45,337 nucleotides of DNA from Candidatus Nitrosopumilus sp. (GTDB lineage: Archaea > Thermoproteota > Nitrososphaeria > Nitrososphaerales > Nitrosopumilaceae), in NCBI GenBank assembly GCA_008080815.1, contig VMDM01000006.1, positions 1 to 45,337 of the forward strand. Reading direction: 5' to 3'. Position 1 is the stretch's first letter. Each line of letters begins with the position of its first letter. The notes beneath the pieces were generated by a model that was not told where the DNA came from, did not search any database, and was given only the letters and a program-made list of their open reading frames with translations. Positions 25,384 to 31,151 of the stretch are shown here, one piece after another. The position numbers and the translations under genes are program-made.

Positions 25384-27135
25384 TCAAAGTAAATTATTGG
25401 TTAATTTCTTAAGGGACACAATTTCGTCTTCTTCTTGTCTTATTTTTTTATCAATTACTCTAAGCATTGTATCATTCCAAACATGCTGAGAGAAGAAATT
25501 ATGTTTAGTGTTAGCAAGCTCTATTTCATCATCGACAACTGTATCTTCTAGAAATTTTGTAACTACGATATCTGTTAATCTCAATATGCGTGAATTTAAT
25601 TTGAAACTTCTAAAAATAGGCTCAACTTTTCGAATGTCTGATTTAAAATCTCCCTTTGATTCTAAAATTTTATTTTTTAAAATTCTGAAATAAACAGCGA
25701 CAAAAAACAATGTTGCGTATCTTTTTGTTTTATGTCCACCTTTTTTTCCATATTTCAAAGATTTTTTTGCATACTCTTTTACCAAATATGGATAAAGTAA
25801 AACTCTATAATCATCTTTGAGATTATCATTGAAAATATCATCGTATTTACTTCCTCTTGGTAAAAATTGTGCTGGAGAACTATATGCCTCTGTAGGTCTT
25901 TGTTCAACTCCTGCAACTAACGCTTGAATTGCATCTTTTGCAACAATTACTTTTTTGTGATTGTCTGGAAGATATTCATTATATGTTATATCACCAAAGT
26001 AATCTGATTGTTGTGATTTTGTTTTACTATCAAACGAACCTGCTTGAATCTCATAAAAATATCCAGAGTTTCTTAATTGTGATTTAATTGACTTGTGGAA
26101 ATCCATTAAGGAAACTAGATCTTTTCCTCTAACTGAATTTTGTGAATTTCGATATTTTGTAATATTATTTTGTTCTTGTTCATCATCAGCTTTGATTATC
26201 GTAACTGTCATTGAACCTTCCATATTTTTCGTTCTTTTTGCATGATCTAAAATTGAATTTGATGTTTGTGCACCATTAACAATTTGTGGTGCATGTAATT
26301 CAATTAAATTTTCTTCAATTTCATTAAAATCACTAACAACGATGGTGATTCCGTTGTTATAAAAAAAGAATTTACTTGGATTATTTTGTAATGTGTCTCT
26401 CAATCCTTTATTGACAGTAGTTTTGAATTGCATCCATTGTCTGATATTGGATTCAAACACATAATCTCTATTCTTACTCACAAAATCAGTCAATTCTCTT
26501 AATTTTAGAATTCCTAAAATTGTATTTTCATGTCTAAGCATTTTTTCAAGTCTGATTGAGGATTTTTTTCCAGCAGCTGGTTTCTTGATTCTCTCCCAAA
26601 GTCTGTTAATGATTTTTTCCTCATCAATTATTTCTATAATATCATCTTTGTAATCGACTTTTTGATTAGTCACATAACAACATTTTATTTTCAAATTTTT
26701 TTCTTTGATCTTTGTAATCAATTGTGCCAGTTCTGGTCTAATCTTTGCCACATCTTTATCTAATAATCGCTCCACATCTTGTCTAAATTTTGCTATTGCC
26801 TCCATAGAATGTGATGAACCATATTTTGATTGAAATAGTCTAATTGTATTATCTGAAAAATCTACAGGTAAATATGCATCAATTCCTAGATCATTTGCAC
26901 CGTCAATAATTGCATCTGCAGCATCATCTTCAGTTGCTTCAAAAACTCTAGTTAAAACCCATTGGAGAAAATTATTACCTTTTTCAACTTCATTTTTTGA
27001 ATTTTCAGCAAATTCGGTAATACTGATTCTAATATTTTCTGCAAACCCCTCTAAGGGCATACTGGAATTTTTTTGAACTAACAAAACTTTAGAACCTGGA
27101 ATGTATTCTAATAATCCATTTCCATTGTTTGACAT
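25384..27135 (-). CDS. AIPR-family (abortive infection phage resistance) protein with Mrr-like nuclease motif
   Basis: 583 residues. The AIPR signature is clear: FFFYNNGITIV at about 256-266 and APQIVNGAQTSNS at about 282-294. The N-terminal part looks like a PD-(D/E)XK nuclease of the Mrr type: an acidic helix region, then GIDAY with D86 and, after a strand, QSK at 102-104, equivalent to D...QxK. The family is linked to abortive infection and phage resistance in bacteria, so an antiviral nuclease is a fair inference, but no experiment on an archaeal member is known to me. It stands alone with no methylase or helicase beside it. A strong hairpin lies at its 3' end. Confidence 0.82.
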   Translation of the reverse strand: MSNNGNGLLEYIPGSKVLLVQKNSSMPLEGFAENIRISITEFAENSKNEVEKGNNFLQWVLTRVFEATEDDAADAIIDGANDLGIDAYLPVDFSDNTIRLFQSKYGSSHSMEAIAKFRQDVERLLDKDVAKIRPELAQLITKIKEKNLKIKCCYVTNQKVDYKDDIIEIIDEEKIINRLWERIKKPAAGKKSSIRLEKMLRHENTILGILKLRELTDFVSKNRDYVFESNIRQWMQFKTTVNKGLRDTLQNNPSKFFFYNNGITIVVSDFNEIEENLIELHAPQIVNGAQTSNSILDHAKRTKNMEGSMTVTIIKADDEQEQNNITKYRNSQNSVRGKDLVSLMDFHKSIKSQLRNSGYFYEIQAGSFDSKTKSQQSDYFGDITYNEYLPDNHKKVIVAKDAIQALVAGVEQRPTEAYSSPAQFLPRGSKYDDIFNDNLKDDYRVLLYPYLVKEYAKKSLKYGKKGGHKTKRYATLFFVAVYFRILKNKILESKGDFKSDIRKVEPIFRSFKLNSRILRLTDIVVTKFLEDTVVDDEIELANTKHNFFSQHVWNDTMLRVIDKKIRQEEDEIVSLKKLTNNLL

Positions 27136-28832: not shown

Positions 28833-29192
28833 GTGGATAGAATCAAACGACTTTCCTTTGAAGTAATGGCTCAACACAAGTCAAAATTTGGTGAAGATTT
28901 TGGAGATAATAAAAAAATCTTAGATCAGGTTTCGATTGTTCGTTCAAAAGGACTAAAAAATGAAGTCGCTGGATATATCACAAAATTTATCAAAAAAGAA
29001 GTTAGAGAAGCAAAAGCAAAACAAGCTAGACATGAGCATTCTAGAGCTCAGAGACAAAATGTAACTGAAGAAATTACTGATGATCTTGTAGAAGAAATTG
29101 AAACAGAATCTACAGAAGTAGTTGATACTATTGAATCTACTACTGATGACAGTTCAGAAGAACTAGTTATTGATAATCAAGAAGAATCATAA
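28833..29192 (+). CDS. rps17e: small-subunit ribosomal protein eS17 with acidic C-terminal tail
   Basis: Archaeal and eukaryotic-type 30S protein. The first ~62 residues are canonical: FGEDFGDNKKILDQVSIV then SKGLKNEVAGYITKFIKK. It is followed by a basic helix and then about 45 residues rich in Glu, Asp, Thr and Ser (for example DDLVEEIETESTEVVDT) absent from the short archaeal form. GTG start, 26 bases below a textbook TATA sequence (ggtataaaag, 28802-28811), so leaderless. Confidence 0.93.
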   Translation: MDRIKRLSFEVMAQHKSKFGEDFGDNKKILDQVSIVRSKGLKNEVAGYITKFIKKEVREAKAKQARHEHSRAQRQNVTEEITDDLVEEIETESTEVVDTIESTTDDSSEELVIDNQEES

Positions 29193-29228: not shown

Positions 29229-30005
29229 ATGATTACTGTAAAATTTATTGGGGGTGCTAAAAAAATTTATCAAACTGAGCAAACCTCTGTCTCAGAATCG
29301 AATATTTCAATTAATGAATTAATAGAAATTTTAGATAAAATTAAACCCTCAAACACTGAAAATCTAGACCTTGATAATACATTGCTTGCAATTAATGGAG
29401 TTGATTCTGCATCATTAGATGGTTTATCAACTATTCTTAAAGATGGTGACATTGTGAGTTTGATTCCAATCATTCATGGTGGTTCACAAAACTCTCTAAG
29501 TTTTACATTTTTAGCAAAAAATGTTCAAATTTATCAAATTAAAGGGGAAAAAATTATCGATGTAAAATTTCTTGAAGAACTAAGAAATCATTTTCCAAAA
29601 TTAACCATTCAAGCCATATCTAGTAAATTCATTTTAAATTCATCTCACCTGAAAAAAATTATCAAACTATCCATTATTTCGCAAAAAAATCATGTATTGC
29701 TATCTAATAAAATCGAAACTGATATCTTAATGAGATTTGCATTAATGACTCAAATCTCATCTGCAATTACTACAGTTGGTATAAAACCAAACGACGATTT
29801 TATTTTGATTTGTATTGGGAACAAAAAACAATTATCCCAACTAAAAAAACAATTAACTGTTCAAATAATTCCTATGTTTGCAAAGAGAAATGAATTATTT
29901 CTAAAAAGATATTTTAAAATCCAAAAAAATGAATTAGAAAGTATCTATTCTAAAAATCCTTTAGAGGATATTTTATTGGAGCGAGCATCAGTACTATTCT
30001 CATAA
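29229..30005 (+). CDS. ubiquitin-like (MoaD/Urm1-type) domain fused to KEOPS subunit Cgi121
   Basis: 258 residues in two domains. Residues ~1-85 have the MoaD/ThiS beta-grasp pattern (ITVKFIGGAKKIYQ, ELIEILDKI, LLAINGVDS, LKDGDIVSLIPIIHGG), ending in His-Gly-Gly at 83-85. Residues ~95-258 match archaeal Cgi121: a middle strand-helix unit ending NKIETDILMRFALMTQISSA, then ITTVGIKPNDDFILICIGN and a C-terminal helix with LLERASVLFS. Cgi121 binds Bud32 and helps deliver tRNA in t6A synthesis. The ATG is about 26 bases below attttaattt; a TTG three bases earlier is ignored. The Sua5 and THUMP genes alongside support the tRNA-modification role. Confidence 0.82.
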   Translation: MITVKFIGGAKKIYQTEQTSVSESNISINELIEILDKIKPSNTENLDLDNTLLAINGVDSASLDGLSTILKDGDIVSLIPIIHGGSQNSLSFTFLAKNVQIYQIKGEKIIDVKFLEELRNHFPKLTIQAISSKFILNSSHLKKIIKLSIISQKNHVLLSNKIETDILMRFALMTQISSAITTVGIKPNDDFILICIGNKKQLSQLKKQLTVQIIPMFAKRNELFLKRYFKIQKNELESIYSKNPLEDILLERASVLFS

Positions 30006-30515
30006 ATCTCGTTTAGTTTTTTCAATACTTAGGATATCTGATTTTCTAATAATTGAAATACCTGTTTTTGAACCCAATATTTCAATTAGAATAATTTTAT
30101 CAGGATATTCTAATGAAACTTTATTTGGAAAAATTTTTGCTACTGAAGAAATGATTTCTTTACTAGAAATATTAGAATTTCTTTTTTCAATCTCGATCAT
30201 ATATTTCTCATCTCTATTGATTTTATCTGAAAGACTTTCTACGGATTTTTTTATCTCATCAATTTTTGTATCAACTACATTTTGAATTGGAATAATTCTT
30301 GAAATGTATCTAATTTCCCATGGTTCGTCTATAATGATACCTCTAACTTTTTTGATTAAATCAATTATATTTACAGTAGTTTTTACTGTTAAAATTCCAG
30401 ATATCTTGGTGATTATTACTTCCGGATTCTCATCCCCCTCTACTCCGACTATCCTTGTAATTTCTTCACGTGTTTCTTCCTCTAAATTTCGAGGGCAAGT
30501 AACAATTAGATTCAT
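30000..30515 (-). CDS. THUMP-domain protein, Tan1-like
   Basis: 171 residues. N-terminal MNLIVTCPRNLEEETREEI and then VRGIIIDEPWEIRYISRIIP fit the N-terminal ferredoxin-like plus THUMP layout of Tan1 homologues, with the closing strand VSLEYPDKIILIEILGSK. THUMP domains bind tRNA; yeast Tan1 assists acetylation of C12 in tRNA-Ser and tRNA-Leu. No catalytic domain is attached. It is downstream of sua5, separated by one base, and its end overlaps the Cgi121 fusion by six bases. Confidence 0.82.
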   Translation of the reverse strand: MNLIVTCPRNLEEETREEITRIVGVEGDENPEVIITKISGILTVKTTVNIIDLIKKVRGIIIDEPWEIRYISRIIPIQNVVDTKIDEIKKSVESLSDKINRDEKYMIEIEKRNSNISSKEIISSVAKIFPNKVSLEYPDKIILIEILGSKTGISIIRKSDILSIEKTKRDL

Positions 30516-30516
30516 T

Positions 30517-31128
30517 TTATGATAATTCCTCTTTTTTCAAAGCACCCTCTCGGATTATTTTCCAATCTTCACCATGAAATTCAATAATTGTTGATTCACC
30601 TTTACCGCTGATTTTGCCTCCATCAATAAAAATATCAAAATTTTTTATTTCATTTTTACCTATCTCAGGATCAGTGAATGATGGTTTACCTGAAATATTT
30701 GCACTAGTTCCTATCAAAAATTTACATTTCTTTAAAAGTTCTTTTGCACAATTATTATTTGGAACTCTTACTGCAATTTTTTCTTGCACCGACAAAATCT
30801 TTCCCAATTCTTTATCTTTTAATTCTAAAATCATTGTGAGCTGTCCTGGCCAAAACTTTTTTGCAAATTCTTTTGCTGATTTATTAAAAAAAACAATTTT
30901 TTCTGCAGTTTCAATTGAATCAACTAAAATTGGTAATGGTTTTGACATTGATCTTGATTTGATTTCATAAATTTTTTTTACAGAATTTTTAAGATATGGA
31001 TTACACCCTATTCCATAAACTGTATCTGTAGGAAAGATAATGATTCCTCCATCTTTGTAAATTGAAAGTGCTTTATCAATTCCATTTTGATCACACTTAA
31101 CAATCATATTTTCAAAAAACAGGTTCAT
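30517..31128 (-). CDS. threonylcarbamoyl-AMP synthase (YrdC/Sua5 family)
   Basis: Makes threonylcarbamoyl-AMP from threonine, bicarbonate and ATP, the first step of t6A37 synthesis. Motifs: GIIIFPTDTVYGIGCNP, KSRSMSKPLPILV, FWPGQLTMILE, IAVRVPNN, TSANISGKPS and IIREGA. Only the YrdC domain is present (203 residues), without the Sua5 C-terminal extension. I use ATG 31128, which lies 27 bases below the shared ttttaaaa box; an in-frame start at 31143 would lie too close to that box. The adjacent THUMP and Cgi121 genes make a tRNA-modification group. Confidence 0.93.
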   Translation of the reverse strand: MNLFFENMIVKCDQNGIDKALSIYKDGGIIIFPTDTVYGIGCNPYLKNSVKKIYEIKSRSMSKPLPILVDSIETAEKIVFFNKSAKEFAKKFWPGQLTMILELKDKELGKILSVQEKIAVRVPNNNCAKELLKKCKFLIGTSANISGKPSFTDPEIGKNEIKNFDIFIDGGKISGKGESTIIEFHGEDWKIIREGALKKEELS

Positions 31129-31151
31129 TATTAATAATCTCACTCCATAAG

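Follow-up and report, generated by a model that had tools for sequence, protein, structure and literature searches.

The question raised by this locus is whether a ubiquitin-like (Ubl) domain and the KEOPS subunit Cgi121, encoded as one protein, remain joined in the cell or are parted at the Gly-Gly that lies between them. The gene is found in a stretch of 45,337 nucleotides from Candidatus Nitrosopumilus sp. (contig VMDM01000006.1), which is referred to below as the window. On balance, the product is probably a precursor from which a cut after an HGG motif yields Cgi121 and an Urm1-like protein in free form, and less probably a permanent addition to the KEOPS surface, the cleavage being deduced from comparative evidence.

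Domain structure of the Ubl-Cgi121 protein

The fusion gene (29229..30005, + strand), recognized from its open frame, Pfam and NCBIfam profiles and family comparison, is a single open frame of 258 amino acids that runs from an ATG at 29229 to the stop codon at 30003-30005 with no internal stop or frameshift. The initial annotation had described this very layout, one uninterrupted frame with a beta-grasp domain ending in HGG (residues 83-85) and then Cgi121, and it is borne out by the open reading frame, Pfam and NCBIfam. The Urm1/SAMP-type beta-grasp domain (residues 1-85; 29229..29483, + strand) matches the Pfam family ThiS (PF02597) over residues 4-85 with 37 bits (cut-off 22.5) and, when the Ubl part is searched alone, Urm1 (PF09138) with 22.9 bits (cut-off 21.8). 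A PDB profile search with the Ubl part found Trypanosoma Urm1 (2k9x, E 2e-6) as well as Sulfolobus and yeast (2ax5) Urm1, and Foldseek matched the model of the domain to 2k9x, 6yuc and 4wwm. Judged by sequence profile, Urm1 is the nearest relative of the domain among solved structures. Like Urm1 of eukaryotes and Sulfolobus the domain ends in HGG (29475..29483, + strand); unlike Urm1, which is a free protein, it is encoded fused. The Gly-Gly is internal in the fused product and not at the encoded C-terminus, whereas split orthologues have it C-terminal or nearly so.

The Cgi121 domain (29487..30002, + strand) is matched in the whole protein by CGI-121 (PF08617) over residues 116-251 with 31.8 bits (cut-off 25) and by the NCBIfam Cgi121 model NF011465 with 140 bits (cut-off 40); with the Cgi121 part alone the scores are 34 and 135 bits, respectively. 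Both profiles agree with the earlier assignment of residues 90-258 to Cgi121. Profile searches with this part also found the Methanocaldococcus and Pyrococcus Cgi121 structures, although a PDB search using it as a single sequence gave no match. The AlphaFold model, based on 16 sequences, has two domains and a low-confidence joint (pLDDT 74 overall, 59 at residues 81-90), and the top 16 Foldseek matches are all Cgi121/TPRKB entries or complexes thereof (E 5e-7 to 5e-5, at a high rmsd and a model pLDDT of 74). No Cgi121 other than the fusion was found in the genome of the window. Of the residues that contact the tRNA CCA end in M. jannaschii, Q71, I72 and G80 are kept as Q175, I176 and G184, invariant in 108 sequences, whereas K56 and M60 are replaced in the window by N160 and T164.

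Fused and split genes across the order

Within the window's family, 78 of the 80 genomes have the uninterrupted two-domain frame; many of them are single-contig assemblies, and the frame is therefore neither chance nor assembly error. The fusion is also encoded at 80 named loci from GTDB genomes, almost all of which carry the label Nitrosopumilus, Nitrosarchaeum or Thaumarchaeota/Nitrososphaerota. Fourteen further families of the order have Ubl and Cgi121 as separate genes, which mostly lie side by side and overlap in some cases, and their free Ubl either stops at HGG or continues past it for a short tail such as S, A, L, CL or MVGV. Family f8 is mixed, the majority of its genomes being split (HGG-stop or tails such as SPKPA) and several genomes of genus g45 fused. 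The two-domain architecture singled out in the initial annotation is, in short, a trait of the window's family and of part of a second family.

In a tree of 65 Ubl plus Cgi121 sequences the fused or split state changes at least six times, at least three of the changes being forced by strongly supported branches, and in every case the junction lies immediately after HGG. Secondary splits within the fused family, in G103 (HGGA-stop) and G209, have kept the motif. Separate orthologues without HGG had been named at the outset as evidence that would speak against a meaningful fusion; separate orthologues do exist, but with HGG. The single exception to Gly-Gly in fused frames may be G050, a divergent and 82% complete genome of family f15, whose fused frame reads HCS in place of HGG (L046:230-520) and in which E1 and JAMM proteins were looked for and neither was found.

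The fusion itself is already known. Makarova and Koonin described it in 2010 in every thaumarchaeal genome available at the time, next to an upstream ribosomal S17 gene, and suggested that KEOPS is regulated by SAMPylation or that the parts act in a coordinated way, linking SAMPylation or sulfur transfer with KEOPS (PMC2948915). The fusion and the S17 neighbour found here are the same. Their scope was all Thaumarchaea, whereas the fusion as mapped here belongs to a single family and some members of a second, other lineages of the order having split genes with a Ubl that ends in HGG; the present study differs also in its processing hypothesis, which is backed by the invariance of HGG. Full-text literature searches, whose coverage leaves out most subscription journals, found no later experimental work on the fusion. 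As far as the searched literature shows, the clade limits, the invariance of HGG and the recurrent fusion and fission at a single point are new supporting evidence.

Conservation of the HGG motif and the junction

HGG, whose conservation the initial annotation had proposed to examine, is unchanged in all 114 distinct fused proteins, with all four glycine codons in use at both glycines. Among 108 family sequences (tree length 24) the three positions rank 5, 23 and 24 of 258 by site rate, and of the 20 invariant positions among the 258 HGG forms the sole run of three. The variable junction that follows (residues 86-95; 29484..29513, + strand), set apart by site rates and pLDDT, begins in the window with Ser86 adjoining HGG and evolves fast (median site rate 1.28 vs 0.65 in the Ubl domain). 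The residue directly after HGG is Ser in 68 of the 114 proteins, Ala in 28, Thr in 8, Leu in 4 and Met in 2, with four others once each, so that S, A or T accounts for 104. Such a pattern would be unexpected for a plain linker: the glycines are either bared by cutting or used by a partner inside an intact chain. The Haloferax protease HvJAMM1 is reported, as cited in PMC8832034, to cut linear fusions without needing the di-glycine, and conservation of HGG would therefore report the function of the Ubl more than its cleavage.

We also considered an internal translation start as a source of free Cgi121. The window has no in-frame ATG, GTG or TTG within 45 codons past HGG and therefore would yield no free Cgi121 by initiation at these codons in that interval; this route is ruled out for the window only, since a possible start codon lies within 20 codons after HGG in 50 of the 114 fused proteins.

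JAMM proteases, E1 and the second Ubl

A JAMM protease is encoded in the genome of the window and in nearly all fused genomes. The protein of the window's genome (G000:C47; PF14464, 65 bits) carries the full metal and catalytic motif E..HSH..S..D, and its best NCBIfam match is desampylase, at 58.8 bits and thus below the cut-off of 130. JAMM proteins were found in each of 30 additional genomes of the fused family that were tested, the split G103 and G209 included; in the fused genome G174, which is 84% complete, the lower-scoring JAMM type is the only one present. By hand count, the higher-scoring type is present in all 7 families with a fused or tailed Ubl and in 4 to 6 of the 9 whose Ubl ends exactly at HGG (one-sided Fisher 0.03 to 0.15, with families taken without phylogenetic correction). 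The co-occurrence is suggestive only, and we have set it aside as proof of processing. A second JAMM paralogue in the window's genome (G000:C5, L088:925-1347) has lost the first metal-binding histidine, HSH having become RSH, a change not seen in the relatives examined.

Genomes of the window's group hold at most two Ubls, the HGG Ubl and a Ubl-E1 fusion, and a search of them for further Ubls detected none, yet NcsA/TtuA is kept: it is present in 56 of 61 genomes, including that of the window (TIGR00269, 83.6 bits). The second Ubl keeps AGG followed by Ser at its junction with E1 in 22 of 22 genomes. In G006 (L107:3185-5735) a gene for a ThrC-type PLP enzyme is followed directly by the Ubl-E1 fusion with its AGGS junction, a pair that resembles the sulfur-carrier-dependent amino-acid synthesis modules CysO/CysM and HcyS/HcyF.

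E1 is present in every single-contig fused genome tested; E1 (ThiF) was not found in 13 drafts from the window's group, including the 87%-complete assembly to which the window belongs. ThrC, used as an anchor for the locus in the E1-less drafts, found nothing, and of 12 such drafts tested for hisF, a gene of that locus, 10 lack it (G000, G003, G004, G011, G014, G020, G024, G025, G027 and G028). The hisF/ThrC/Ubl-E1 locus either dropped out of these assemblies alike, next to a large S-layer-like gene, or has really been lost. An E1-independent role for HGG, with E1 lost and the motif kept, was set aside because the hisF locus is absent as well and the single-contig genomes have E1.

Precursor model and alternative explanations

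In the model that we favour, a JAMM-type, desampylase-like metalloprotease would cut the linear precursor after HGG. The freed Ubl, ending in Gly-Gly, would carry sulfur for the 2-thiolation of tRNA together with NcsA/TtuA and might also tag proteins; the freed Cgi121 would join Bud32-Kae1-Pcc1 and hold the tRNA CCA end for t6A synthesis. The fusion would set the stoichiometry and co-expression of both parts, and a coupling of the two chemistries would not be required. The cut, the cutting enzyme and the role of the Ubl in thiolation are what we infer; among the ideas of the initial annotation, release of both parts after HGG is the best supported in that free Ubls end at HGG and the motif is invariant.

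By likeness to known systems the product is most likely a precursor. M. tuberculosis MoaX is cut between Gly82 and Ser83, and the cut is required for activity (PMC4326299); DRJAMM cuts the MoaD-MoaE protein of Deinococcus (PMC8832034). As in these proteins, a Gly-Gly Ubl lies N-terminal to its partner and a small residue follows the glycines (Ser in MoaX), although there the Ubl is joined to the large subunit of molybdopterin synthase, with cleavage proven and needed, and here to a KEOPS subunit, with a proposed cut. In Haloferax volcanii, HvJAMM1 cuts a SAMP1-MoaE linear fusion (PMC4443979), again an archaeal Ubl in linear union with an enzyme subunit and, as proposed here, freed by a JAMM protease, but SAMP1 and MoaE are normally separate proteins, whereas here one gene encodes the fusion. 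Ub and SAMP precursors of Caldiarchaeum have C-terminal tails that Rpn11 and JAMM trim off (PMC6043591).

The precursor model is favoured by the invariant HGG, with all glycine codons in use and a fast-evolving stretch next to it, by the ends of the free Ubls in other families, and by repeated switches just after the motif, which secondary splits retain. The predominance of Ser, Ala or Thr at the position that is Ser83 in MoaX points the same way, as do the intact JAMM of the window's genome and its counterparts in the 30 further genomes, the AGG-Ser junction of the Ubl-E1 fusion, the retention of NcsA/TtuA where no other Ubl was detected, the lack of a nearby start codon in the window and the conserved CCA-contact residues Q71, I72 and G80. 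Weighing against it, JAMM proteins occur widely and their substrates may be just the Ubl-E1 partner or conjugates of Ubl, G174 has the lower-scoring type alone, HvJAMM1 reportedly does not depend on the di-glycine, the window's draft has no detected E1 (though the neighbourhood of that gene is missing too), and two CCA-contact residues, K56 and M60, are replaced.

It is possible, if somewhat unlikely, that the fusion stays intact and that the Ubl is a permanent KEOPS domain docking a partner such as NcsA, E1 or Kae1, with HGG inserting into that partner and thiolation and t6A synthesis taking place on one tRNA. The near-universality of the fusion in the family, the adjoining Ubl and Cgi121 genes in most of the order and the action of both parts on tRNA, by family assignment, agree with such an arrangement. 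A sulfur carrier, on the other hand, requires a free C-terminal glycine, the Ubl of sister families ends at HGG, repeated fission preserves the motif, and the junction, variable and modelled with low confidence, is unlike a fixed interface. The permanent new KEOPS contact surface offered as an option in the initial annotation likewise found nothing specific in its favour and fits badly with repeated fission and fusion.

Still less probable is a proteolytic switch, in which the linear fusion would be an inhibited, constitutively "sampylated" Cgi121 that a JAMM protease activates on demand. The analogy is to Haloferax, where molybdopterin synthase regains its activity when HvJAMM1 cuts SAMP1-MoaE (PMC4443979), and JAMM proteins are indeed present here, but sister lineages produce free Cgi121 without such control. 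We think it equally doubtful that a regulated JAMM cut at the genome-encoded junction makes sulfur-carrier release and KEOPS activation one event and so couples tRNA thiolation to t6A synthesis. The least probable alternative is neutral, a stop codon lost between overlapping genes with no processing, the Ubl then decaying or working without a free end. Genes that abut or overlap in many split genomes would make such a loss easy to picture, and the divergent, 82% complete G050, fused, devoid of HGG and with neither E1 nor JAMM found, would suit it; yet not one amino-acid change at HGG occurs in 114 proteins, and decay of the Ubl is therefore excluded in the main clade.

Since its publication in 2010 the fusion has lacked a mechanism, and the pattern described here reduces an open guess about Ubl and KEOPS to the single question of whether the chain is cut after Gly85. 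If it is, the Urm1-like protein of these marine ammonia-oxidising archaea would be matured from a KEOPS precursor, in a way comparable to eukaryotic ubiquitin, which is matured from fusions to ribosomal proteins.

Genomic neighbourhood

The upstream operon partner of the fusion gene encodes ribosomal protein S17e (28833..29192, + strand; GTG start; Pfam Ribosomal_S17e, 63 bits). A first pattern scan caught 57 named fused loci, and 52 of them have S17e upstream, as do many loci with split Ubl/Cgi121 pairs, in several other families. The S17e of the window has an acidic C-terminal tail that extends some 45 residues past the part covered by the S17e equivalog model.

Sua5/YrdC is the enzyme that makes the threonylcarbamoyl donor for KEOPS. 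Its gene (30517..31143, - strand; PF01300, 176 bits) lies downstream, next to a convergent gene for a THUMP-domain protein (30000..30515, - strand; PF02926, 37.6 bits) that shares 6 bases with the end of the fusion gene; with both assignments confirmed by Pfam, the tRNA-modification setting noted earlier for this locus stands. Elsewhere in the window, an AIPR-family protein is encoded at 25384-27135 on the - strand (Pfam AIPR, 200 bits; PADLOC AbiU, 162 bits), and this gene is a candidate for abortive-infection phage defence.
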